A stretch of DNA of 64,000 nucleotides from Leucobacter sp. cx-42 (GTDB lineage: Bacteria; Actinomycetota; Actinomycetes; Actinomycetales; Microbacteriaceae): NCBI RefSeq assembly GCF_014529985.1, contig NZ_JACVMU010000007.1, positions 186,001 to 250,000 on the forward strand. The letters are read 5' to 3'. The position numbers were made by a program, and so were the translations under genes. How positions within the stretch are numbered: the first letter of the stretch is position 1; each line of letters starts with the position of its first letter. The notes beneath the pieces were generated by a model, which searched no databases, was not told where the DNA came from, and was given only the letters and a program-made list of their open reading frames with translations. Of this stretch, positions 49,891 through 62,994 are shown piece after piece.

Positions 49891-51849
49891 CTAAAACGGT
49901 GCCCACGGGCACAACGCGCGAGTGGCGGAATTGGCAGACGCGCTAGATTTAGGTTCTAGTGTCTTCGGGCGTGTGGGTTCAAGTCCCACCTTGCGCACCA
50001 TCATGCTCTTACTAGAACTATAAGCACTAGAAAGAGCATTGGGAGAGTGAATTACATCAGCAAAGAGCCTGTCAGAAACGGCAGGCTCTTTGCTTTTCAG
50101 TGCGAATTCGTTGGCGGCGACTCGGATCTCACGCTGTCCGAGGAAGACGAAGGCTTCCGTGAACCTGGGCTCCACTGATGATTCCATTTCGCCGTGGTCG
50201 AAGAAAACATCAAGGCGTTCAAAGATGAGCTGGTTCAGCATGCGCCTGATGTGGGGTGGGGCTGCCTGGTAGCTGCGCGATAGATCCTCGACGATATCAA
50301 GTGCCAGCGTAATCAACCGATCCATTTCTTTGAGGTCTTGCATCTGCGCGTCGAGACTCCGGGTTACTGAAAGGTGTTCGGCTTCAAGACGTTGCTGCTC
50401 TTCGCGGAGCAGTTCGACAGGGATTGCATCGTTGTAGTGCGCTTCAAGCAACTTCTTCTGCTTCCGTTGAATTTGTATCTTCTCGGTCTCCAGGCGCTTT
50501 CGTTCGTCCTCGTTGTCTAGATCGACGGCTTTCAGGGCGCTACGCACCATGGCTTCCAGATTCTGTCGCAGGTCAGGATCAATGGAAATGCGCTGGTAGA
50601 TTGCTTGAATCTTGTCTTCTAGCACGTCGAATTGGATGGAGCGGAGGTCGCATTTGGTGCGTTTGGCCAGTCTGCCGGAGCAGGAGAAATATTCGTATAT
50701 CTCTCCGTTGCCTCCGGAGCGGGCCTTCTGGATGATGAGCCGTGAGCCGCAGTGTCCACAGAATACGGTGGATTTCAAGTAGTGCTCGTGCTTGCGAGAG
50801 CGTTCTCCCTTGAGCTTGCCCCGAAGCACGCTCTGTACCGTCTCGAAAGTGTCTCTGCTGATCAGTGGTGTGTGGTTGCCGGGATACTCAACTCCCTGGT
50901 AAATCACCGTCCCGGTGTAATAGGGGTTGTTGAGGACGTTATCGAGCTGCCGTTTCTGGATAGGTAGCGAGCTCATCCGGGCTGTCGGTACTGTCCTAAG
51001 GCCTCGCCTCGTCAGTTCTTGGCCGAGGGATTCCATTGTCCATTCACCGGTGGCATAGGCCTCAAATGCCCACGTGATGAGTGGTGCTCGGGTTTCGTCC
51101 ACGATGACCGTACGGGCTTCTCGTCCGTTTTCAATGGTGCGCACATTCAGGTAGCCGATCGGGGCACGGCCTGGGGTTCCACCATTCTTGGCTTTCTCGC
51201 TCATACCTTTGATGACCTCATTGGAGAGGTTCTTGGAGTAGAACTCGGCGATTGACGACATGATGCCGTGGAGCAGGAGACCGCCAGGGGTTTGGTCAAT
51301 GTTCTCACTGGTGGAGATGAGGCGAACCCCGAGGCCGTCGAGTTGCTTGTTGATCTCCACGTCATCTGCCCGGTTGCGGGCGAGCCTGTCGAGCTTGTGC
51401 ACGATGACGTAGTCAATGTGCTCGGCCTGCTCTTTGAGATACCGGAGCATCTCTTGCAGCGCCGGTCGGTTGGTGGAGGTTCCGGAGACGCCCCGCTCGA
51501 CGAACTCTTTGGAGATCATGGCCCCAATTGATTGAGCTTTCTTCTTGTTTGCTTCACGCTGTGCAGGAATCGAGAAGCCTTCTTCGAGGCCACCCTTTTC
51601 TGCCTGTTCACGAGTGGATACACGAATGTAAGAGACTGCGCGTTTCGGTGTGAAGCTTTGGGTCAGTGCCGCGAACGGGTCGGCCATCGCGGGCGGCGCA
51701 GCTGTTGCGCTTGGGGTGGATGTTGACATACTCATGTCTCCATTGACGCTTCTTTGCTCGGAAGAGTCCAGTCCATTCTGCGGCGTGATCATGCGGTTTT
51801 CCACAGGCTCTGGCGCGCCATCGGGGGTGGGGCTACTTGTAGAAGACAT
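49891..51849 (-). CDS. Large serine recombinase (integrase)
   Basis: A 652-residue recombinase. After ~65 residues of Ser/Pro/Thr-rich tail come the resolvase catalytic domain with AVSYIRVSTREQ (Ser78), DYVIVHKLDRLARN, a recombinase domain, a zinc ribbon (FCGHCGSRLIIQ ... FSCSGRLAKRTKC) and a long coiled coil (~450-530). ATG 51849 follows GGGGAGG and overlaps the upstream gene by 17 bases. The frame continues past the element boundary and reads antisense through the whole tRNA-Leu, so the last ~37 residues come from chromosomal sequence; in the excised form the C-terminus would differ. Confidence 0.93.
   Translation of the reverse strand: MSSTSSPTPDGAPEPVENRMITPQNGLDSSEQRSVNGDMSMSTSTPSATAAPPAMADPFAALTQSFTPKRAVSYIRVSTREQAEKGGLEEGFSIPAQREANKKKAQSIGAMISKEFVERGVSGTSTNRPALQEMLRYLKEQAEHIDYVIVHKLDRLARNRADDVEINKQLDGLGVRLISTSENIDQTPGGLLLHGIMSSIAEFYSKNLSNEVIKGMSEKAKNGGTPGRAPIGYLNVRTIENGREARTVIVDETRAPLITWAFEAYATGEWTMESLGQELTRRGLRTVPTARMSSLPIQKRQLDNVLNNPYYTGTVIYQGVEYPGNHTPLISRDTFETVQSVLRGKLKGERSRKHEHYLKSTVFCGHCGSRLIIQKARSGGNGEIYEYFSCSGRLAKRTKCDLRSIQFDVLEDKIQAIYQRISIDPDLRQNLEAMVRSALKAVDLDNEDERKRLETEKIQIQRKQKKLLEAHYNDAIPVELLREEQQRLEAEHLSVTRSLDAQMQDLKEMDRLITLALDIVEDLSRSYQAAPPHIRRMLNQLIFERLDVFFDHGEMESSVEPRFTEAFVFLGQREIRVAANEFALKSKEPAVSDRLFADVIHSPNALSSAYSSSKSMMVRKVGLEPTRPKTLEPKSSASANSATRALCPWAPF
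49916..50000 (+). tRNA. tRNA-Leu (anticodon UAG)
   Basis: The acceptor stem GCGCGAG/CTTGCGC closes; the anticodon stem CTAGA/TCTAG encloses the loop TTTAGGT with anticodon TAG at 49950-49952; a class II variable arm and the GGGTTCAAGTCCC T-arm follow, and CCA is encoded. It marks the left boundary of the mobile element, and the integrase frame crosses it on the other strand. Confidence 0.96.
50003..50039. repeat. Inverted repeat at the tRNA/element junction, candidate attachment site
   Basis: An 8-bp arm (50003-50010) pairs with 50032-50039, and inner CTAG tetranucleotides (50012-50015 and 50027-50030) extend the symmetry. It begins two bases after the tRNA CCA. It could be part of attL for the serine recombinase, or a terminator for the tRNA transcript. 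Confidence 0.45.
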
Positions 51850-52702
51850 ATACGCGGCCTCCCCGCTCTACCAAGTCAACCATGTCTCGTACTTCTTGCC
51901 GCAGGGCCTCCCAGTCAGGGGTGAGATAGTCGTAGTAGAGACCCTTTTCTGAAATGTATTCTTCGATCTCACGTTCTCGCTCGTCAAGGTCGCAGACCGA
52001 GCGCAGCGCATCTTCTTCGTCGCGAAACTCCGCAATATATGAGTTGTGGAAGCCTTCCATGATGTCGCCGCTGAACGCGTTCACGTTCGGGAGCGACAAA
52101 TAGGCTTGCAGGCCGATGTCTTTATCGAGCTGCAGCAACGTGAGTTCTTGCTTGAGGTCTTCGATGGCGGCGCTGTCGTAGCAGCCGGGGACGTGCACTT
52201 CCATCTCAAGATCCTCGATCTGTACTTTCGTTGGCACGAGGAGCTCCTCGAGCGTGAGCGGGTAGGGCTCGTTGGAGCTAATCGTTTCGGCCTGTGGATA
52301 CTGCTTGCGGATGATGTGGGTGCCGAGCCAAGTGACTTGCTCTGCTACCCAAGCGGGTGCTTCACTATCGATGTAGAGCTGAAGATATTCGTCGCGCATC
52401 GCCGCGTAGTCGGCTTCGCCGGTGCGGCCAAATTCAGCCAGGGCGCTCATCCTGCCGAACGCGCGCCCGAAGGTGTGCGCGATGCAGCGGGCGGTTTCGT
52501 GGTTGATGCCGGTGTGGCGTTCGGTGGCGTGGGCGATGCCGTCGGCGATGCGGTCGCCGAATCTGCGGGAGGCGACTTCAAGTCTGCGCCAGTCAAGTTC
52601 GACGGGGTCTGGCGCGAGATATGACTCCCCTGCAAGGCGGCGTTCAAGCAGCTGTTCTGGTTCACGTTGTGACCGATTGGGCGTGAGGTTGTCAATATTC
52701 AT
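51833..52702 (-). CDS. Mobile-element protein of unknown function, 289 residues
   Basis: ATG 52702 follows a strong AAAGGAGG; the open frame upstream is out of use. No family recognised. It has a helical N-terminal half with DWRRLEVASRRFGDRIADG and HTFGRAFGRMSALAEF, and an acidic second half. No membrane segment or signal peptide. The stop lies inside the integrase start region, so the two are translationally linked. Confidence 0.75.
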   Translation of the reverse strand: MNIDNLTPNRSQREPEQLLERRLAGESYLAPDPVELDWRRLEVASRRFGDRIADGIAHATERHTGINHETARCIAHTFGRAFGRMSALAEFGRTGEADYAAMRDEYLQLYIDSEAPAWVAEQVTWLGTHIIRKQYPQAETISSNEPYPLTLEELLVPTKVQIEDLEMEVHVPGCYDSAAIEDLKQELTLLQLDKDIGLQAYLSLPNVNAFSGDIMEGFHNSYIAEFRDEEDALRSVCDLDEREREIEEYISEKGLYYDYLTPDWEALRQEVRDMVDLVERGGRVYVFYK

Positions 52703-53362: not shown

Positions 53363-53806
53363 TTAGTCCTCGTACTCGACGGCGAGTGGCCTGCGGTCAA
53401 AGACGTGGACGCCCTTGATCGCGGGGATCAGCTCGTATCCCTCGGCGAGAACTTCTCGGAGTCGTGACTCGTCCCAAGGTAGGGAGGCTATGCCACCCGT
53501 GTCTCGATGAAGCGCCTGAATCGTGAGTCGCCAGCCAGATCGTTCGAGGAGTTGTTCGGTTGCGTTTTTGAGGCTCGTACCAGTGAAAAGGTATGAACGT
53601 CGGTACATGTCATGCAGGTCACCGGCGAACACTTCCTTAACTTCTGGCGCGAGCATAAACGCTGCGAACGACTCGCCGTATCGTTCCAGCCCGGTGACGA
53701 GCGCCTTCAGGCGTCCTGGTTCGTACGCGAGCATCACGATTGCCTGTGTTGCAGCGGTGAGTGCACGGTCGTACCGTTGGTCTTCTGCAGAGAGTTGATA
53801 TGTCAT
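53363..53806 (-). CDS. Mobile-element protein of unknown function, 147 residues
   Basis: ATG 53806 (MTYQLSAEDQRYDRALTAAT) follows GGAAGGAGGG. The protein looks cytosolic and mostly helical, ending with a short acidic tail (LAVEYED). No family recognised. It lies 111 bases after the Replic_Relax gene and belongs to the same gene train. Confidence 0.7.
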   Translation of the reverse strand: MTYQLSAEDQRYDRALTAATQAIVMLAYEPGRLKALVTGLERYGESFAAFMLAPEVKEVFAGDLHDMYRRSYLFTGTSLKNATEQLLERSGWRLTIQALHRDTGGIASLPWDESRLREVLAEGYELIPAIKGVHVFDRRPLAVEYED

Positions 53807-53917
53807 AGTGATTTCCCTCCTTCCAGGGTGAGTTTGTTGACCCGGGACGCCCGTCGGCAGCAGCGCGCTACCGGGGGTGAACACCGGTCTAGAAGAGATC
53901 GTGAGGACTCGGGGAAG

Positions 53918-54685
53918 CTAGGTGTTTGAGGTTGGCCCGTCGCGGACAAGTTGCTGCAGCTCCGGCATCGTGATCACCGTGAAGAGATCTTTGGGTAGAC
54001 CAGGCTCGCTGCTAATCGCTTTGACGAGTTGGTGCTTGCGCGCTTCATGTGGGACAAGCCACACCACTGCCGGGTAGACGCCGTGCTCGCGTTGTTCGGT
54101 GCCGCTGCGCTGGTAGTGGACGTAGCGCCAGCACTTTGCGATGACGCGGGCTGGGTTCTCGGTGTCTCGGTCGACTTCGATGAAGTAGCGGTCAACGTAG
54201 TCGTCGCTCGTTATTGTCGCTGCGAGGTCAGGCTTCAATGTGTTCGCACCGCCGTGTCCATCCAGGTAGCGTCGCCAACAATTCGGCTCGACCTCCACCT
54301 CAAGGCCACGGTGGAATTGCCGGGCTGCTTCGTGGAGCGTGACCCTGGTTTCAGTAATCGCGAGGTGGTGGCGTAGGAACGTTGTCGTGTGGTGGTGGGG
54401 CCTGACACGCCTGCTACTGCCGCTGAGGTGACGCAAGCCTTTGGTGGAGAGTGTCCAGATCGAAACCCCAGATCCGCCCTGCCAACCGCCGATGCGCCGC
54501 TCCAGACGAACCAGATAATGCTGTCGTTGAAGTTCGCGAAGGTGCCTGCTGGTCTGCCGAATCGCCGACCGACGGTTGCCATACCGGTGCATAGTGAGTC
54601 TCGTGAGCTGGTGGGTGTCAGCAAAACGATGCTCGTGAATCGTCTGCAGCAGTAACGCGTGAATGGGTTGCATATCGATGGTCAT
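53918..54685 (-). CDS. Replication-relaxation family protein
   Basis: The N-terminal ~95 residues form a winged-helix (LLLQTIHEHRFADTHQLTRL ... RHLRELQRQHYLVRLERR) and the rest carries the Replic_Relax (PF13814) pattern ending in a nuclease-like fold (LKPDLAATI, YFIEVDRDTENPARVIAKCWRYV). Members occur in actinobacterial and firmicute plasmids and integrative elements beside TraG-like ATPases and are thought to act in plasmid relaxation or transfer. ATG 54685 overlaps the 52-residue gene (ATGA), and its AGGAGGT site lies in that gene. Confidence 0.85.
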   Translation of the reverse strand: MTIDMQPIHALLLQTIHEHRFADTHQLTRLTMHRYGNRRSAIRQTSRHLRELQRQHYLVRLERRIGGWQGGSGVSIWTLSTKGLRHLSGSSRRVRPHHHTTTFLRHHLAITETRVTLHEAARQFHRGLEVEVEPNCWRRYLDGHGGANTLKPDLAATITSDDYVDRYFIEVDRDTENPARVIAKCWRYVHYQRSGTEQREHGVYPAVVWLVPHEARKHQLVKAISSEPGLPKDLFTVITMPELQQLVRDGPTSNT

Positions 54686-54840
54686 GGGGTACCTCCTGCG
54701 GCTCCGGCGGCGGCACCACTCTCAGCGAGAGAAGTCACCGCCACTTTCTGAGGTGTTTCGGCCACGTTCCGCGGTGCTTCAGGCTGTGAAACGCGGGCGG
54801 CATGTCTACCCAAATGTCTAGGGGTCAGGTATACGGTCAT
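54682..54840 (-). CDS. 52-residue protein coupled to both neighbours
   Basis: This gene is too short for routine calling. Its ATG (54840) overlaps the stop of the TraG-like ATPase gene and its TGA overlaps the ATG of the Replic_Relax gene, an ATGA at each end. The product is basic at the N-terminus (MTVYLTPRHLGRHAARV), then Ala/Gly/Pro-rich and probably unstructured. The double overlap is strong evidence that it is translated; function unknown. Confidence 0.75.
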   Translation of the reverse strand: MTVYLTPRHLGRHAARVSQPEAPRNVAETPQKVAVTSLAESGAAAGAAGGTP

Positions 54841-57011
54841 CGCTTGACCCTCCCTACCGGTGCACTCACATCGTCAGCCTCCGCACCTAGGTCAGGCGTA
54901 TCGGGGTAGATGAGCTGCACCAAGTCGCGCTCGGTCTGCTCAGCAGGCACCCCGTAGCGTTCCTGCGAGGCAGCGTAGGCGTCGGCGGCGTGCTGCTGCG
55001 TTGGTGTCGGTGGGAGTGTGCGAACACTCATCCAGCCGGTGCTATCGCCGTCCTGCATGACGTTGGCGTAAGCGTGATATTTCGGGAGCAACATCAGGTC
55101 TTGCTGTTCTAGCCCCGGCATGAGTTTCGCGGTTGCGGCTGCGTCGAGGCCGTTCATGCCGAAGTAGATCTTGTTCCTGGTGTTTGCCTCCACCGCTTGC
55201 ACCATCGCGGGAGACAGTTGTGATCGGTACTGGTGGGCGAGTACGAATCCTGCCCCGAGGGATCTCGCCTGTGCAAGAGCGTCAGCCAAATCGCCTGGGA
55301 GTCCGGCGATGAAGTCGTGCACCTCATCGATATAAACCCCGACCATGTGACGACGTGCCTTTGGCAAAGCTTGGCGAGCGAGCAGTCGACTCCACAGTTG
55401 CCCGAGCAGGAGCGTGCCGAGGAGTTTTGCGGCGTCGCTTCCCAGGAGGCCGCTATTGAGATTTACGATGACGATGCGTTGTTTCGAGAACAGGTCACCG
55501 ATATCGAAACGTGGCATTTTTTGCCCGAGCACGGCACGCAGCCCCGGACGCAAGATGAGCTGCCGAATTTTGTTGAGCACCGGTGCGATCTCCACCGCCT
55601 GCGCATCGGGCTTCTTTGCGTCGTACTGCCGCCAGAACGCGTCGGTACCGAGCGGGTCAGTATTCTCCTTCAGGAGCTTCTTACGAAACACCGGATTTGT
55701 GAGCAGTGGGTGCAGCCAGAGTAGATTCGCGCCGTCCAGCCGCGCCAAGGTGAGGAACGCTGCCGAGAGGACATCCGCGGTACGGATGCCCCAGTTTTCT
55801 TTGAACAGCGATTCAAACGTGGCAAGTAGTGTATCGGCGGTGACGGATGGGTCACGTTCACCCGCGTTGAGCGGATTGAAGCCAATCGGAGTGCTACTTG
55901 TCGGATCAATGACGACAACATCGCCCTGGCGAGACGCCGGGATGCGGGCGAGGACATCAGTGGCGAGGTCACCTTTCGGGTCGATCAGGAACACGCCACG
56001 GCCAGCTTTCATATCGGCTTCGATGAGGCCGAGCATGACCGTCGACTTTCCGCTGCCGGTTGGCCCCATCAGATGCGTGTGGAAGGCGGCATCGGCGAGC
56101 GGGATCGCTACCGGATCATTCCTGCCAGGGGCGATCAACTCCCCGATGACTCGCTCGCTTGGCTCCAAGTCAGACTTCGGGGTGAGGAGCCTGGGATGGA
56201 TGCTGCCAAACATCGGTAAGGGTGGTTCACCGATCGGCCAGCCCGTCAGCGCGGTTATTTCGCTTACGCGGAGGTGGAGCGGCCACCGCCAAGGCAGCTG
56301 CGGCTCCAACAATCGGATGGGGTGCTCATTCTCGAGACCGAGCGTGCTGCTGCTCGTTTCGAGCCCTCGGAGCACCCCACCGATACTGGTGATGAGATGT
56401 CGGAGCCTGCCGGGTGGGCTACCGGTCGCCCCGACCCGCACCGTCAGCGAGAAGCCATGCTCCTCGCTAGAGCGACTGGAGGTCGAGCGGGACGCGTGCG
56501 TTTTCGGCGGTGACGTGAGGAGCATTTCAAACCAGCTCGGTGCTTCCACTCGCTGCCAGCCTCCGGGAGCGATACGGCGACCAAGTAGCAGCTGGGTGAC
56601 GACACGTTCATCTCCGGTGAGGCTGGTCAGTGTGCCGTACAAGCCACGAATCACAGCGGCCACTTTTTCGGGGGCGAGAGTCAAACCTCGCCCTCTCTCG
56701 TGTAGACGTGCAGCGACATCAACGTCTGGTCGCTTCCACCTCGGTTTCACAATGCGCACCTGGAGGAGCGCGGTCAGGGTCTGCTTGAGTGTGTCGATGC
56801 GGTGACGTTCCACGCCAATGAGCCAGCGCAGATGCTTCTCGTCGGCGTGGAGTTCCAGCCCGATGACACCGAGTTCTCGGGCGGTGGCGAGGCGTTCGAG
56901 GACAGTCGTGACGGTGTTCGGGGTCAGGGTGGTGTCGAAGTGGAGTTCGCGCCACTCGAGGTTCAGGCCCCGTTTCGAAGCCACGAGTGCTTTCAGTTGA
57001 CGGTTACTCAT
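54837..57011 (-). CDS. VirD4/TraG-like conjugation ATPase
   Basis: The 724-residue product has Walker A MGPTGSGKST near residue 320, FLIDPKGDLATDVL, a Walker B region HMVGVYIDEVHDFI and the late AHQYRSQLSP and EANTRNKIYFGMN segments of TraG/TraD-type coupling ATPases. There is no N-terminal membrane segment, unlike classical VirD4; the N-terminal ~280 residues are soluble and unassigned. It would pump or guide element DNA. ATG 57011 with GGAGG upstream overlaps the preceding small gene by eight bases. Confidence 0.85.
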   Translation of the reverse strand: MSNRQLKALVASKRGLNLEWRELHFDTTLTPNTVTTVLERLATARELGVIGLELHADEKHLRWLIGVERHRIDTLKQTLTALLQVRIVKPRWKRPDVDVAARLHERGRGLTLAPEKVAAVIRGLYGTLTSLTGDERVVTQLLLGRRIAPGGWQRVEAPSWFEMLLTSPPKTHASRSTSSRSSEEHGFSLTVRVGATGSPPGRLRHLITSIGGVLRGLETSSSTLGLENEHPIRLLEPQLPWRWPLHLRVSEITALTGWPIGEPPLPMFGSIHPRLLTPKSDLEPSERVIGELIAPGRNDPVAIPLADAAFHTHLMGPTGSGKSTVMLGLIEADMKAGRGVFLIDPKGDLATDVLARIPASRQGDVVVIDPTSSTPIGFNPLNAGERDPSVTADTLLATFESLFKENWGIRTADVLSAAFLTLARLDGANLLWLHPLLTNPVFRKKLLKENTDPLGTDAFWRQYDAKKPDAQAVEIAPVLNKIRQLILRPGLRAVLGQKMPRFDIGDLFSKQRIVIVNLNSGLLGSDAAKLLGTLLLGQLWSRLLARQALPKARRHMVGVYIDEVHDFIAGLPGDLADALAQARSLGAGFVLAHQYRSQLSPAMVQAVEANTRNKIYFGMNGLDAAATAKLMPGLEQQDLMLLPKYHAYANVMQDGDSTGWMSVRTLPPTPTQQHAADAYAASQERYGVPAEQTERDLVQLIYPDTPDLGAEADDVSAPVGRVKR

Positions 57012-57213
57012 GGTGCCCACCTCCATCACTTGTCATCTGCCCAGATTTCTGCCCCTTGTTATGGACGACCGGGTTCGTTTCGTCAAGATGCATCGCAAGC
57101 ATCAGCATGATGCGAGCAAACTCTTTCTCATCAAAGGTGGTCTTCCAGACCGGGACGACCCGGTGATTTCCGTTGTCTTTTCGCACATAAGCGCGTTTCT
57201 TAGGCTTACTCAT
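57004..57213 (-). CDS. Small basic element protein, 69 residues
   Basis: MSKPKKRAYVRKDNGNHRVVPVWKT (by pattern, first part strongly basic), then a helix (FARIMLMLAMHLDE) and a polar end. No family recognised. The stop overlaps the ATPase start (ATGAGTAA), which supports translation. Nucleic-acid binding is possible from charge only. Confidence 0.7.
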   Translation of the reverse strand: MSKPKKRAYVRKDNGNHRVVPVWKTTFDEKEFARIMLMLAMHLDETNPVVHNKGQKSGQMTSDGGGHHE

Positions 57214-57466: not shown

Positions 57467-58219
57467 TTACTTGGGCTCCTGGGCTACCGCCTCTGCCAGC
57501 GTCAGCAGCGAGGAAGGTGCAGCAGCGTTTCGGGCGACGTCGTTAGTGGGGTCGACAACCGGGTCGCCCGGCACCGGGTACCCCCACTGCTTCAGCGAAA
57601 TCAGCGACGGTTCAGATCCTGGAAGTTCATTTCCCCAGACATCCCAGTCACCCCGCGTCGGCGCTGGCCGCCGCGCAAATAGCTCCAGGTACGGGCCGTC
57701 GCCAACTACCCTGGACACCATGGAGTGAATTTCCTCGGGCTTGTGCGAGTGCTGCTGGAGAGCATGGAAGCCCCAGTTGGGTTGTGACCGGAAGGCAAAC
57801 TTCGTGCCCTTCCCGCGTACCCCAAGGAGGAGCAGCTCTCCAGCGTTGCGGAAGGTATTGCCGAGTGTGAACCGTGGCTTCGCCCAGAAATAGAAGTTCG
57901 TGTAGCGGAACCCCCACCGGGTGAGCACCTGGATGCCCAGCGGTAAGGTGGCGGCGGTGACCCAGAGGAAGCAGAAGCTCTGCTCGGCCGAGATCTCCTG
58001 GATGGCGTCGCCTAACCCAAGGATTCTTTCGTCGGTCATGAGTGGGTAATGGTCGGCTGCGGCTGCGTAGCCGGAGGAATTTTTTGACCGCTCCTGGAAG
58101 AGACTCCAGGGCGGATCGGCCAGGATCGCCCGGTAGGTGCAGGGCTTCGGGGTGCGGTCGGGGTTGAGCCGCTCGTCTCGGCTGCTTTCGGTGGCGATCG
58201 TAGTGGTGGGTTCAGGCAT
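57467..58219 (-). CDS. MT-A70 family DNA adenine methyltransferase
   Basis: The 250-residue product has YRAILADPPW (DPPW at residues 35-38), the SSGYAAAADHYPLMTDERI block, FLWVTAATLP, GFRYTNFYFWAKPRF and a final SAM-site segment with PYLELFARRPAPTRGDWDVWGNEL. Phage and element members of MT-A70 methylate adenine in DNA and can protect against host restriction. ATG 58219 with AAAGGAG upstream is used; the open frame beyond lacks family similarity. No cognate nuclease lies beside it. Confidence 0.88.
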   Translation of the reverse strand: MPEPTTTIATESSRDERLNPDRTPKPCTYRAILADPPWSLFQERSKNSSGYAAAADHYPLMTDERILGLGDAIQEISAEQSFCFLWVTAATLPLGIQVLTRWGFRYTNFYFWAKPRFTLGNTFRNAGELLLLGVRGKGTKFAFRSQPNWGFHALQQHSHKPEEIHSMVSRVVGDGPYLELFARRPAPTRGDWDVWGNELPGSEPSLISLKQWGYPVPGDPVVDPTNDVARNAAAPSSLLTLAEAVAQEPK

Positions 58220-58421: not shown

Positions 58422-59153
58422 TTACAACGCCCCATGAGAACCACCCCGTTTCGGTACTGGTGAGAGCGGTTCCAGCCGGTAGCTGGGCTGTCCCGCGCCT
58501 GGCCGATACCGTGTCAATGAATGCGTAAGTGCAGCTGCCAAACGACCCGGTGGATCGAGGGAGCTGACCTGCGTAATGAGGACATTTGGAAGGGCCAGTA
58601 GCTCGGCAGGAGGGGCGGCGTTCATGACGACGGCATGCACGAGGCCCGGAAACGAAGCGATCTCTTCATACGGTTGAGCCGGGTTAAGATCGAAGAGTTC
58701 GAAGTCGGAGAAGATCACCGCCACATGGTCGGCATCGGGATGCTTCTCGGCGGCCCGGTTCATGGCCATCATCGCCGGAGTCAGAGTGCTCGCCCCCGTG
58801 ATGCCCACGGGTGGATCGACCGCCGTCAGGAGTTCAGTCAGCGGCTCCTTCTTGTGCAGTGGCAGCGGCCCTACTTGCGGTACGTTGGGGTGATCGAATC
58901 GGTAGATAGTGACTTGCTGCATGTTGCTTCGTGAGCTGTTCGCAATGTGCCGGAGAGCTTTTTTGGCTTCTTCGTAGCGGGCACCGATGGGGTCGTTCCC
59001 GTGCGAGAGTGACCCGGAATCATCGAAACAGCACTGCACATAGACCGGGGAGCTGGGGTCGTGACCAGCAGCCCCGAGGGTGATACGCCGCTGCATAGTG
59101 GGTGCCGGGCGAGCTACTGCCGGGGGAAGCATCTGGCTCGGGAGCAATGTCAT
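58422..59153 (-). CDS. VWA-domain protein (cytosolic)
   Basis: The 243-residue product has a MIDAS-like motif DDSGSLS (residues 44-50), a later TGASTLTP (conserved Thr) and VAVIFSDFELFDL (Asp of the third MIDAS loop), so a metal-bound VWA fold is likely. No signal peptide. The ATG lies two bases after the stop of the membrane protein gene, whose last codons provide the AAAGGGAGGG site. Probably one unit with the two genes upstream. Confidence 0.75.
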   Translation of the reverse strand: MTLLPSQMLPPAVARPAPTMQRRITLGAAGHDPSSPVYVQCCFDDSGSLSHGNDPIGARYEEAKKALRHIANSSRSNMQQVTIYRFDHPNVPQVGPLPLHKKEPLTELLTAVDPPVGITGASTLTPAMMAMNRAAEKHPDADHVAVIFSDFELFDLNPAQPYEEIASFPGLVHAVVMNAAPPAELLALPNVLITQVSSLDPPGRLAAALTHSLTRYRPGAGQPSYRLEPLSPVPKRGGSHGAL

Positions 59154-59155
59154 GG

Positions 59156-60247
59156 CTACTTCCCTCCCTTTCGGGGCGCACGGCCCACGGCGTCGTCAGG
59201 ACGAGGACCGTGACCGGCCACACTCGGGTTGCCGCGGAGGATCCGCCATTTCAGGGCTTGCACCTGCCGAGTGGCCGCATCGCCGCGAGCCGTGAACTCT
59301 TCTCGCAGGCTGGCTTCCTCGGCACCGTGCTCTGCCCAGGCCTGCCAGTTGGTATCAGCGGCGAGCTTCAGGTGACGCTGCTGCTGCGCGTCATAGTCGG
59401 CCTGGTGGAGATCGATAAGGTCAGCGACCTCGTCAGCCCCGGCATACGAGACAAGGAATGAGCCGCCCGCGACCGCGAAAGCAACACCTGCGAAGATAAA
59501 GCCAACGAGCGGATCGTCGACTGCCCCGCGCAGCGCCCCAATCCCTACCCCGACCGTCAGCGCTGTCACGAGCGATAACAGCAGCACTCGTTTGACGATC
59601 TGTGCTCCGGAGTCGGTGTCAGTAAACAGGTGCGCGAAGGGGCGCTCCTCCGGGGTGAGAGCTTCCAAATCACGTTCGCGAAGCTTCCGTCGCCGCATGT
59701 CCGAATACTCGGTGCCGACGAGACCGGCAACGACCGTGGCTACGGCAGCACTGGCCGCCAACGTGACCGCGATAAATGGCGGTTCCCCGAGCCACATAGC
59801 CGCGGCCGCGAACCCCGCCATATCACCCACAAAGATGAGTACTTTCGCTAACTGATACCAGCGCTTACTACCAACCGCGCGACGCCGAAATAGCGACAGC
59901 ACCGCCAAGACTTGCTGGAGTCTCGTCCGCGACTGGTCGAGAAGCTCCCGACTACCAGTCACTGCATGGGTTAGCTCAGTTGCCTGTAGTTCAAGGCCTG
60001 CTTGTGCAACACTGGGCCGCCGGGTTTCGCTGGCGGCAGTGGACTCCCAGAGGGCAACCTGCTCGCTGGTCAAGTCGTCATATTCCACCTCGACCCAGAG
60101 ATACGCGACCTCTTTCGGGCGAGGCAGGACGCCTCCGGAATCGGCAGGCTGGAGTGTCACACGCTCTGCCACAGTGGCAGCGTCACCAGCCGCCTGGAAC
60201 GGATCGAGCAGGGCCTGCGGCGCACCCATAACGTTTGGGTTCGTCAT
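59156..60247 (-). CDS. Four-segment membrane protein, unknown
   Basis: About 363 residues: a soluble N-terminal third with a coiled coil (ELTHAVTGSRELLDQSRTRLQQ by pattern, residues ~85-115), two membrane segments (~130-185), a charged cytosolic loop (MRRRKLRERDLEALTPEERPFAHL), two more segments (~220-275), and a helical C-terminus. No family recognised. It lies between two VWA genes with gaps of two and five bases, suggesting it is the membrane core of a VWA complex. Confidence 0.7.
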   Translation of the reverse strand: MTNPNVMGAPQALLDPFQAAGDAATVAERVTLQPADSGGVLPRPKEVAYLWVEVEYDDLTSEQVALWESTAASETRRPSVAQAGLELQATELTHAVTGSRELLDQSRTRLQQVLAVLSLFRRRAVGSKRWYQLAKVLIFVGDMAGFAAAAMWLGEPPFIAVTLAASAAVATVVAGLVGTEYSDMRRRKLRERDLEALTPEERPFAHLFTDTDSGAQIVKRVLLLSLVTALTVGVGIGALRGAVDDPLVGFIFAGVAFAVAGGSFLVSYAGADEVADLIDLHQADYDAQQQRHLKLAADTNWQAWAEHGAEEASLREEFTARGDAATRQVQALKWRILRGNPSVAGHGPRPDDAVGRAPRKGGK

Positions 60248-60252
60248 GATGC

Positions 60253-60993
60253 TCAGCCCTGCCACTGGGTTGCGACAGTGCAGGAAGCAGCGCCCGTGCG
60301 TTCGCAGACGCGCTGCCAGAATGCCGTCACCAGTTCAATAACCGATGAAGGCACCGACGTAGTCGTCCGCCCGATCCCCACGAAAGTCAGCTTCACACCG
60401 GAAAGATCCGGCACTGCAACCTGATCCGCCAGCGCCACTGCAGCCTCCGTGCTGGCCACTGCTGCCGGATCCACGCCGACGTTCGTGAAACCGTCCGTCA
60501 GGATGAATACCTCATGCGCCGCATCTGGGTGCTGCGCTTTGGCTTCCTCAATAAGCCGCAGGAGACCCAGGACGTCAGTGGCTGAGGCCGGGGTGCGGGC
60601 CGCGGCTTCGCCGAGCTTGTCACGAACGGTCGAGGTGGCGTCTTCTGCAAGCTTCTCCCGCTTGCGGCGTGCAGCATTCTCCGTCGGGGCTTCGACCTGG
60701 AACGACCGCTCCAGCAGCGTCACTGTCTGACCGGATGACTCCCCGAAGGTCGCCACCCACAGGTCACCGCCACAGGCGGCGGTGTGACGAGCGAGTTTTG
60801 AGATTGCCGTTTCGTAGTCCTCACCGCTGTTGCTCGCGAAGCTGGAGCCGGTGACATCAACGAGACTAATGCTCTTCAGTGGCGCATCCGGGCAGGCTTC
60901 GGTTGGTGCTGAACCGGTCGGAGCGGTGCAGCCAGTGAGTGCCAGGAGTGCCACTGCGGAAAGAGTGACACTACGCATAAAGGGTCGGGACAT
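60253..60993 (-). CDS. VWA-domain lipoprotein
   Basis: The 246-residue product has a signal peptide with lipobox LALTGC and an extracytoplasmic VWA-like domain: LVDVTGSSFAS replaces the usual DxSxS (Asp-x-Thr-x-Ser), with FILTDGFTNVG as the later metal loop and LTFVGIGRTT. ATG 60993 follows AGAAAGG. It would face the outside while the second VWA protein faces the cytosol. Confidence 0.75.
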   Translation of the reverse strand: MSRPFMRSVTLSAVALLALTGCTAPTGSAPTEACPDAPLKSISLVDVTGSSFASNSGEDYETAISKLARHTAACGGDLWVATFGESSGQTVTLLERSFQVEAPTENAARRKREKLAEDATSTVRDKLGEAAARTPASATDVLGLLRLIEEAKAQHPDAAHEVFILTDGFTNVGVDPAAVASTEAAVALADQVAVPDLSGVKLTFVGIGRTTTSVPSSVIELVTAFWQRVCERTGAASCTVATQWQG

Positions 60994-61061
60994 GTGCGTA
61001 CCTTTCTGAAATGAGTTCTGGGGAAAGAAGTGGAGCTGTGGGGGCCAGGACGCGCGCATCA

Positions 61062-61913
61062 TCACGTGCCCGGCATTTTCGTCCGCTCAGGCGGAGACTC
61101 CGTGAAGATCTGCTGGCAGATACCGCACCCGATCGTGCCAGCACGCCACCAGCCACGAGCCATGCGAATAGTGCGCTTGCGGCCCTGCTCGTTTCTGCAG
61201 CCACACTGCGCGAACACGTACTTCTGTACCGCGACCTCAAGCGCAGCCTCTGGGGTCGACTCGGCCTCGGCTGGCGTGGACGGTGTGAAGTTCGGGAGCA
61301 GTCGCAGCTCACGCTCTACCTGCGAGATGAGGTCCGCGTAGGTTTCTGCGCCCTGTTCGGTGAAGCCGGTGGTCTGGAACCCGATATGGCTGCGTCCGCT
61401 GCGCTCCACCCGAAGCTCCAGACGCCGAGCAAGGTCAGCGAACCGCTTGTTGTGGTAGCGGTTCCCGCGGCCCGATGTGTCTCGGATGTCGTTCGCTTTG
61501 GCGTAGAGATGGACGAGTTCGTGGCAGATCGTGAGCACGATGTCCGAGGCAATAGCCGCAGTGCTGCTACCGGCGTAGACCCCGTGCCCGATATTGATGT
61601 GGATCTCATCGAAGGGTTGCTCGTTATAGGCCCATTTCTCTGGCGCGTAGAAGCCGAGCGCGCCAGAGCGCTGACCGTTTACGACAAGCAGTGCCTGGTC
61701 AAGGTAAAGATCGGGAAGACCGGGGAGCTGTAGCGCGCACCGCTGGGCTACTTCACGACCAACGAAGTAGCACGTCGCAGAGAGTCGGAGAAAACTCTCC
61801 TGGGCCTGCGTCCCGCTTGGTAGCTTTGAGCGTCCCGGGTTGGTATTTTCGTCCAGATGGGCGGAGACTCTCGCTGCGGATTCAACCGAAACGATGTCAT
61901 TTTGAGCGGTCAC
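61062..61913 (-). CDS. SprT-like zinc metallopeptidase
   Basis: The 283-residue product has HELVHLYAKAND (HExxH at 131-135), a downstream HNKRFADLARRL segment typical of SprT-like proteins (third histidine), and a C-terminal zinc ribbon (FAQCGC ... IGCGICQQIF). Spartan/SprT relatives cut DNA-protein crosslinks in eukaryotes; bacterial element members are unstudied, though adenine- or transfer-linked roles are imaginable. GTG start with AAAGGAGGGG. First gene of the minus-strand train, directly after paired operators. Confidence 0.8.
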   Translation of the reverse strand: MTAQNDIVSVESAARVSAHLDENTNPGRSKLPSGTQAQESFLRLSATCYFVGREVAQRCALQLPGLPDLYLDQALLVVNGQRSGALGFYAPEKWAYNEQPFDEIHINIGHGVYAGSSTAAIASDIVLTICHELVHLYAKANDIRDTSGRGNRYHNKRFADLARRLELRVERSGRSHIGFQTTGFTEQGAETYADLISQVERELRLLPNFTPSTPAEAESTPEAALEVAVQKYVFAQCGCRNEQGRKRTIRMARGWWRAGTIGCGICQQIFTESPPERTKMPGT

Positions 61914-62061: not shown

Positions 62062-62994
62062 ATGGCGAGTGTCTTACCGCAGGATCAGCTCTTTGACCTT
62101 TGCGCTCGCGAGGGTGCGACTCCAAAGAACATCAGAGAGCGTGCACCCTTCTTAGAAACACTTCCGGCGACCCAGCACGCCCTCAGTTTGCTTCCCGTGG
62201 AAGGTTGGGGTGAGGCAGCCCGAGCGCTGCTAATTTGCGTTACGAGACCAGGTGGGGCTGGTGGGTTTGATGAGAGAATTTCCCTTTTCGTTGTGACGTG
62301 CCTCGCATTAGACGGGTCCATTGCTCCGCTCGGTCAGCGGCTCGATAATTTAATCGAGAGAAGAATCGAGAACTATCCCACATCTAGAAATACTTGGACG
62401 AAGATGCGACAGGTCGCCATGACCAAGCTCGCCGTCTCACTTCAAACCCTGCAGGAATACCCTTGCGGGTCTGAAGACTCTCTACGGGGTATAGCCCGTT
62501 TGATCGCAGCAAATGCTGCGTTGATCCGAAAGCACATGGCCCCGAAGCTCAGCAAAGACGAAGTGTTGCAGCTTCACCAGTTGGTCTTCGAAGAGTTGCC
62601 GAGAGTCAATGAATACTTCGAGTCCATCCGTATCGCGCCAACCGCATATGTAAAGAAACTGCAATGGGTTATCAGCGCGATTTCAAGAGGAGCCTACGCG
62701 CGACTGTACGAGGACCTCGGGCCAAGTGCCGCTGAGATCCTCGTTCCACCACGCTATGTCACGTCCTTTTTTGGGGATGTGCTGGGGAGCTATGACCCAG
62801 ACGCCGAGGAGATTCAACTCATGGTGCGCGCGATCTCAGTGATCATGTTGGACACGGAAGGCCACGACCTCTGGAGGGAGGCATTCCATAGAGAGCGGCG
62901 AAGTGAGAGCCTGTCTCCCGGCATGCTCGAGCAACGGCGCCGAATCGCAAGCTATTTTGAGTCATGGATGTTCGCTAAGCCTTCAATGGTCTGA
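62062..62994 (+). CDS. Uncharacterised 310-residue protein
   Basis: I recognise no family. The protein is almost wholly alpha-helical by pattern, has no signal peptide, membrane segment or clear catalytic motif, and contains acidic helices (LSKDEVLQLHQLVFEELPRV). AGAGGGG precedes the ATG. Codon use is less G+C-rich than the chromosome. It diverges from the operator-controlled train, a position often held by regulators, immunity or defence genes. Confidence 0.7.
   Translation: MASVLPQDQLFDLCAREGATPKNIRERAPFLETLPATQHALSLLPVEGWGEAARALLICVTRPGGAGGFDERISLFVVTCLALDGSIAPLGQRLDNLIERRIENYPTSRNTWTKMRQVAMTKLAVSLQTLQEYPCGSEDSLRGIARLIAANAALIRKHMAPKLSKDEVLQLHQLVFEELPRVNEYFESIRIAPTAYVKKLQWVISAISRGAYARLYEDLGPSAAEILVPPRYVTSFFGDVLGSYDPDAEEIQLMVRAISVIMLDTEGHDLWREAFHRERRSESLSPGMLEQRRRIASYFESWMFAKPSMV

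Follow-up and report, generated by a model that had tools for sequence, protein, structure and literature searches.

This work concerns a 64,000-nucleotide stretch of the Leucobacter sp. cx-42 genome (contig NZ_JACVMU010000007.1, positions 186,001 to 250,000), hereafter the window, which contains the left half of an integrative element of ca. 28.6 kb. In an earlier note made from the sequence, four genes of this element were described as a single cassette encoding two von Willebrand factor A (VWA) proteins, a membrane protein and a SprT-like protease. The four minus-strand open reading frames (ORFs) were confirmed, with gaps of 68, 5 and 2 bases. Three of them form a real and conserved unit, the trio, which occupies a fixed slot of the element and is replaced in related elements by an unrelated two-gene module, the duo.

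60253 to 60993, minus strand: VWA lipoprotein of 246 aa, first gene of the module (lipobox LTGC; predicted VWA fold in an AlphaFold2 (AF2) model, with Foldseek matches)
59156 to 60247, minus strand: membrane protein of 363 aa with four predicted transmembrane (TM) helices, second gene of the module (AF2 helices; sub-threshold SLATT_1 similarity at residues 114-178)
58422 to 59153, minus strand: predicted cytosolic VWA protein of 243 aa, third gene of the module (Pfam VWA_2 in homologues; conserved metal ion-dependent adhesion site, MIDAS)
61062 to 61913, minus strand: SprT-like putative metallopeptidase, an optional gene that heads the operon but lies outside the module (HELVH motif; Pfam SprT-like match below the cut-off)

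Profile matches in homologues, together with conserved residues, identify the product of the third gene as a genuine VWA protein with a MIDAS. Pfam VWA_2 was matched in five of 10 homologues (best E 2.1e-6), the window protein searched alone giving no such match, and the MIDAS residues DxSxS...S...(S/T)D were retained in 14/14. Profile and family searches with the lipoprotein returned no useful direct match; its AlphaFold model (predicted local distance difference test score 83.9) led Foldseek to VWA structures such as BatB, TRAP and CMG2, with 62 chains at E<=0.001 and a best E of 8.6e-6. The lipoprotein is accordingly modelled as a VWA fold, and MIDAS-like residues are mostly retained in its family. 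In the membrane protein, the AF2 model and hydropathy both support four TM helices (127-152, 157-190, 214-243 and 246-270), flanked by long helices at 51-120 and 273-339, and the basic loop between the two hairpins would place both ends in the cytosol. All structure predictions were monomer models. The earlier note had placed the two VWA proteins on either side of a protein with four spans, and the predictions agree with this.

The alignment of the four-TM family showed D142, inside TM1, and D272 to be invariant, and acidic residues also recur in the outer loops: E155 or Asp in 16/16 sequences, and D244 or Glu in 15/16 as aligned. A similarity to SLATT_1 was detected below the cut-off in six of 10 members (best E 4.1e-6). 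Against the curated NCBIfam SLATT model, the window protein reached 21.6 bits for a cut-off of 41, and its four TM helices depart from the two-TM architecture of that family. Nothing convincing was matched in the PDB by the four-TM protein, no trio gene matched the PADLOC anti-phage defence models, plasmid and viral collections contained no relatives of the four-TM protein, and plasmids none of either VWA protein. No description of this gene combination was found in the literature consulted, in agreement with the earlier impression that no named system has this layout, and the trio is apparently undescribed so far. Its families lie outside the coverage of Pfam, NCBIfam, PHROGs and PADLOC, and gene boundaries are now assigned to them.

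Homologues were gathered by searching the order, family and phylum, plus one species-genome collection. In these soil actinobacteria, 14 independent elements carry the trio (Microbacterium, Planctomonas, Herbiconiux, Arthrobacter, other Microbacteriaceae and one actinomycete metagenome-assembled genome), always as lipoprotein, four-TM protein and cytosolic VWA protein in identical order and on the same strand. Since order and strand are kept at all of these loci and the pairwise distances of the three genes co-vary (r 0.74-0.83), the arrangement is far beyond chance. The three genes are co-transcribed. The sole split trio seen is that of L028, where two genes related to a 173-aa protein encoded elsewhere in the window are inserted between the four-TM and VWA genes (L028:10708-11774). 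A weak match in L031 (genome G1110) was dropped, no module homologue being found there.

The SprT-like gene behaves differently. It accompanies the trio in the window and in L034, is missing from the other 12 trio loci, and has a homologue in L077, an element that lacks the trio. The conserved unit therefore comprises three genes, not the four of the earlier note. That note had held that homologues found mostly alone or with unrelated partners would speak against a conserved association; such a pattern was not seen for the trio, but it was for the SprT-like gene. The peptidase label itself is weak: the sequence shows HExxH (HELVH) and, towards its C-terminus, a Cys motif, while the Pfam score of 16.6 bits stays under the curated cut-off of 25.6.

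The trio is followed by the backbone of the element, which is integrated at the 3' end of a tRNA-Leu gene. From the tRNA end, the gene order is serine recombinase, D270, its small relative, Replic_Relax relaxase candidate, coupling ATPase, MT-A70, trio and SprT-like gene:

49916 to 50000, plus strand: tRNA-Leu gene, integration site, with the core GCGCACCA at 49993-50000
49891 to 51849, minus strand: large serine recombinase (Resolvase, Recombinase and Zn_ribbon_recom above cut-offs)
51833 to 52702, minus strand: D270, a conserved backbone protein of undefined function that co-varies with the trio
53363 to 53884, minus strand: the 173-aa protein, weakly related to D270, with relatives inside the L028 trio
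53918 to 54685, minus strand: Replic_Relax (MOBC-type) relaxase candidate (PF13814)
54837 to 57029, minus strand: TrwB/HerA-type coupling ATPase, resembling type IV coupling proteins (T4CPs), without N-terminal TM domain (TrwB_AAD_bind)
57467 to 58219, minus strand: MT-A70 adenine methyltransferase, first backbone gene past the slot (Pfam MT-A70, 77.7 bits)
62062 to 62994, plus strand: divergent gene of undefined function, assigned to the slot border by its position

The extent of the element was deduced from a second copy of the 8-bp core GCGCACCA at 78614-78621 (window numbering, beyond the window) and from an empty site in the relative G1194, in which the chromosome runs uninterrupted through the tRNA-Leu gene; in the window's contig, the homologous flank resumes at 78614. 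Since the recombinase ORF extends at its 3' end across the tRNA-Leu gene, in antisense to it, the C-terminus of the recombinase would change upon integration. The backbone lies downstream of the trio in 14/14 loci as far as contigs extend, except that L039 gave no MT-A70 match; MT-A70 is present in 12 of the 13 trio loci whose contig reaches that far. By eye, D270 and the 173-aa protein resemble ArdA antirestriction proteins; Pfam and PDB searches gave no support for this.

The coupling ATPase, found in 17 of 300 genomes of the family, led to 11 readable elements that lack the trio. All 11 carry MT-A70, ATPase, relaxase and recombinase, and the backbone therefore does not require the trio. In its place, 10 of them encode gA (ca. 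100 aa), accompanied in nine by gB (ca. 96 aa, combining a TM helix with a coiled coil); in the remaining element, L084, neither was found and the slot is occupied by an ORF with predicted TM segments. Conversely, all 14 trio elements lack gA and gB, no element carries both modules, and profile comparison detected no remote similarity between gA or gB and the trio. The families that flank the slot are shared by trio and duo elements on either side; in several elements other than that of the window, both duo (L074, L081, L083) and trio (L028, L032, L033), the divergent gene at the border belongs to one family (54-73% identity). Trio and duo are thus unrelated, mutually exclusive alternatives for one fixed slot.

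Exchange between the two was frequent. The window element is the sister of the duo element L083 on a well-supported tree of ATPase and relaxase, and the two share 69% identity in MT-A70, 57% in the ATPase, 63% in the relaxase and 62% in the recombinase, with unrelated modules in the slot. On this tree, starred branches enforce a minimum of six changes between the modules, whose clustering hardly exceeds that of shuffled labels (41-51 of 500 shuffles as low). This count is based on 24 elements and covers the fetched stretches, several contigs ending within elements. That essentially two types of module recur in the slot, in contrast to a highly variable cargo end, speaks for a role of the slot in the backbone. 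Because related elements with matching ATPase and relaxase hold two small unrelated genes in it, the trio is not simply a substitute for missing VirB-like parts, as the earlier note had suggested. With at least six replacements between close relatives, the slot amounts to a natural swap experiment: whatever its job, both modules should perform it, so that its function becomes testable.

The transfer setting without VirB-like parts, which the same note had envisaged, found support in the gene content. The coupling ATPase scored above cut-off with TrwB_AAD_bind (31.2 bits) and T4SS-DNA_transf (24.8 bits), and its PDB matches were TrwB, the HerA-like YjgR and DotL. Unlike a canonical VirD4-type T4CP, it has no N-terminal TM domain in any of the 14 copies scanned (13 elements), the lone TM call (L039) falling within a 5' extension of the ORF. 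The relaxase candidate matched PF13814 Replic_Relax with 119.4 bits for a cut-off of 25.3. Across the host genome, VirB4 (TIGR00929) was not detected above cut-off, and the sole sub-threshold match was the element's own coupling ATPase. These elements form a family that is integrated by a serine recombinase and encodes a MOBC-type relaxase and a coupling ATPase of its own, but no type IV secretion system (T4SS). An integrase with attachment sites, a relaxase candidate and the lack of a mating-pair apparatus of its own match the window element to integrative and mobilizable elements (IMEs), and transfer is predicted from gene content.

Relatives of two trio genes also occur outside mobile elements. 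In two genomes of one distant actinobacterial family (L030 and L056:8591-11398), a chromosomal operon without mobility genes encodes a homologous lipoprotein and a homologous four-TM protein in the same order as the trio. In contrast to the trio, its third gene encodes a TM-anchored OmpA-domain protein, and there is no cytosolic VWA protein. This sister operon suggests a general envelope role. A motor of the MotAB/Zorya type was considered, given the OmpA partner and the intramembrane Asp. On reading, the TM helix of the OmpA partner contains no acidic residue, and the four-TM model gave no such structural match, an absence that is not proof.

Beyond the SprT-like gene, the element continues in the divergent orientation with the border gene, followed by a type I restriction-modification (RM) operon, a YgjP-like peptidase, an AAA ATPase and DUF6414 (63793-73865 in window numbering; L014). 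Its right part also encodes an ATPase whose N-terminus bears a P-loop and, immediately before the right boundary, a type IV prepilin-like protein (76053-77300 in window numbering; L015:2053-3300). HsdM/HsdR-like genes were observed in the related elements L076 and L084, which L078 and L081 seem to resemble in this respect, judged by size and sequence. Upstream of the module, a GajA-like protein (L029:673-2385) and a protein matching a dCTPase model (L027:12036-13973) suggest a cargo end with defence genes in related elements. Prepilin-like genes with an N_methyl motif, in some cases together with a Fib_succ_major domain, lie repeatedly upstream of the module, as in L013:4575-5717, L033:5806-6792, L036:4281-6331, L037:247-1269 and L077. 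The host genome contains one strong match to a T2SSE-type ATPase.

How actinobacterial elements with a relaxase and a coupling ATPase but no secretion system move is a question on which the trio bears. Our preferred reading, held tentatively, is that the trio, like the duo, serves as the membrane component by which the transfer complex is docked or gated. As the coupling ATPase lacks a membrane domain of its own, the slot would supply this component. Such pairings have precedents: T4CPs without TM domain pair with a separate membrane protein, as for TraJ and TraI of pIP501, and in CloDF13, a MOBC plasmid, the TM domain of its T4CP, MobB, is essential for mobilization (PMC7431656, PMC12857230). 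Putative IMEs with their own VirD4 plus MobC have also been described (PMC5704250). The four-TM protein would hold the coupling ATPase at the cytoplasmic membrane, or gate a passage fed by it, with the cytosolic VWA protein bound to its inner face. On the outer face, the acids E155 and D244 are predicted ligands for the metal site of the lipoprotein, which may lock onto them as a regulated clamp or a contact sensor. DNA would then leave via the T4SS of a helper or a channel yet to be recognised, and the duo would perform an equivalent task using a single-span coiled-coil protein.

Several observations weigh against this docking or gating role. Distances of trio genes correlate only moderately with those of ATPase or relaxase (r 0.45-0.60), compared with r 0.88 between ATPase and relaxase, so that trio and ATPase-relaxase appear as two sub-modules travelling together and partly reassorted. 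The tree of the ATPase N-terminal domain shows six module changes, the same number as the ATPase domain, and thus no signal of co-adaptation with module type. Three proteins with two metal sites seem elaborate for a mere anchor, and the sister operon, with relatives of the lipoprotein and four-TM protein beside an OmpA-domain protein and no transfer genes, indicates a core activity not tied to transfer. Both the interaction of trio and ATPase and the transfer of the element are, finally, inferred from genes.

Alternatively (ALTERNATIVES), the slot might provide exclusion or immunity against a second related element or a phage, the two module types representing two specificities. We consider this unlikely, and the version in which the SLATT-like membrane protein is a pore or effector and the VWA proteins are sensors equally so. 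SLATT proteins are predicted pore-forming effectors of conflict systems (PMC7159879), and the SLATT_1 similarity, the frequent exchange of the two types and the other defence genes borne by these elements (type I RM, GajA-like protein) are all consistent with exclusion. However, the SLATT score lies well under the curated cut-off in a protein of four rather than two spans, the trio has no PADLOC match, the two recurring slot types differ from the variety at the cargo end, and the defence cargo lies outside the slot, past the divergent gene.

Less probable still is a general envelope-stress or ion-responsive complex recruited for host fitness or maintenance rather than transfer. The chromosomal sister operons with their OmpA-domain partner and the co-variation of the trio genes as their own unit would fit such a complex, but not the fixed place between the divergent gene and MT-A70, the shared orientation with the transfer genes or the mutual exclusion with the duo.

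That the trio is itself a T4SS-independent DNA export channel driven by the coupling ATPase, in a role like the TraB double-stranded DNA route of actinobacteria, appears improbable, slightly more so than the envelope complex. A metal-clamped, possibly ion-conducting four-TM complex would here let a soluble ATPase export DNA without a T4SS, its OmpA-anchored cousin acting in the envelope; if true, the trio would represent a novel type of membrane machinery that exports DNA. The lack of VirB4 in element and host, the invariant D142 and D272 and a neighbouring ATPase of the FtsK/HerA/TrwB superfamily are compatible with this idea. It is difficult to reconcile with a duo that replaces the trio by two proteins of ca. 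100 aa that together have a single clear TM helix, with an outer face of short loops, and with the absence of a recognised component that crosses the thick wall. Finally, a functional four-gene system including the SprT-like gene, suggested by the arrangement shared by the window and L034, is contradicted by the distribution of that gene and can practically be set aside.

Several known systems share features with these elements. MOBC mobilizable elements, such as CloDF13 with MobB and MobC and the putative IMEs of Streptococcus (PMC5704250), likewise combine a T4CP-like ATPase with Replic_Relax/MOBC and no T4SS genes, and the Streptococcus elements are integrative as well. In contrast, the ATPase of the elements described here has no TM domain, their integrase is of the large serine recombinase type, and the transfer genes are preceded by MT-A70 and by an additional membrane module that is exchangeable. 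In pIP501, TraJ and TraI (PMC7431656, PMC12857230) similarly associate a TM-less T4CP and a candidate membrane partner in one operon, but this plasmid encodes an entire T4SS, and its TraI is small and has two TM spans, whereas the trio comprises two VWA proteins and a four-TM protein. The helix and two-TM hairpin of SLATT-domain proteins (NCBIfam NF033634) find a counterpart at residues 114-178 of the four-TM protein, which differs by its two hairpins, its sub-cut-off score and the lack of nucleotide-signalling partner genes. The vWA-MoxR conflict systems (PMC7159879) also encode VWA proteins beside possible membrane effectors in their operons; unlike these systems, the trio includes no MoxR ATPase, and one of its VWA proteins is an exported lipoprotein.

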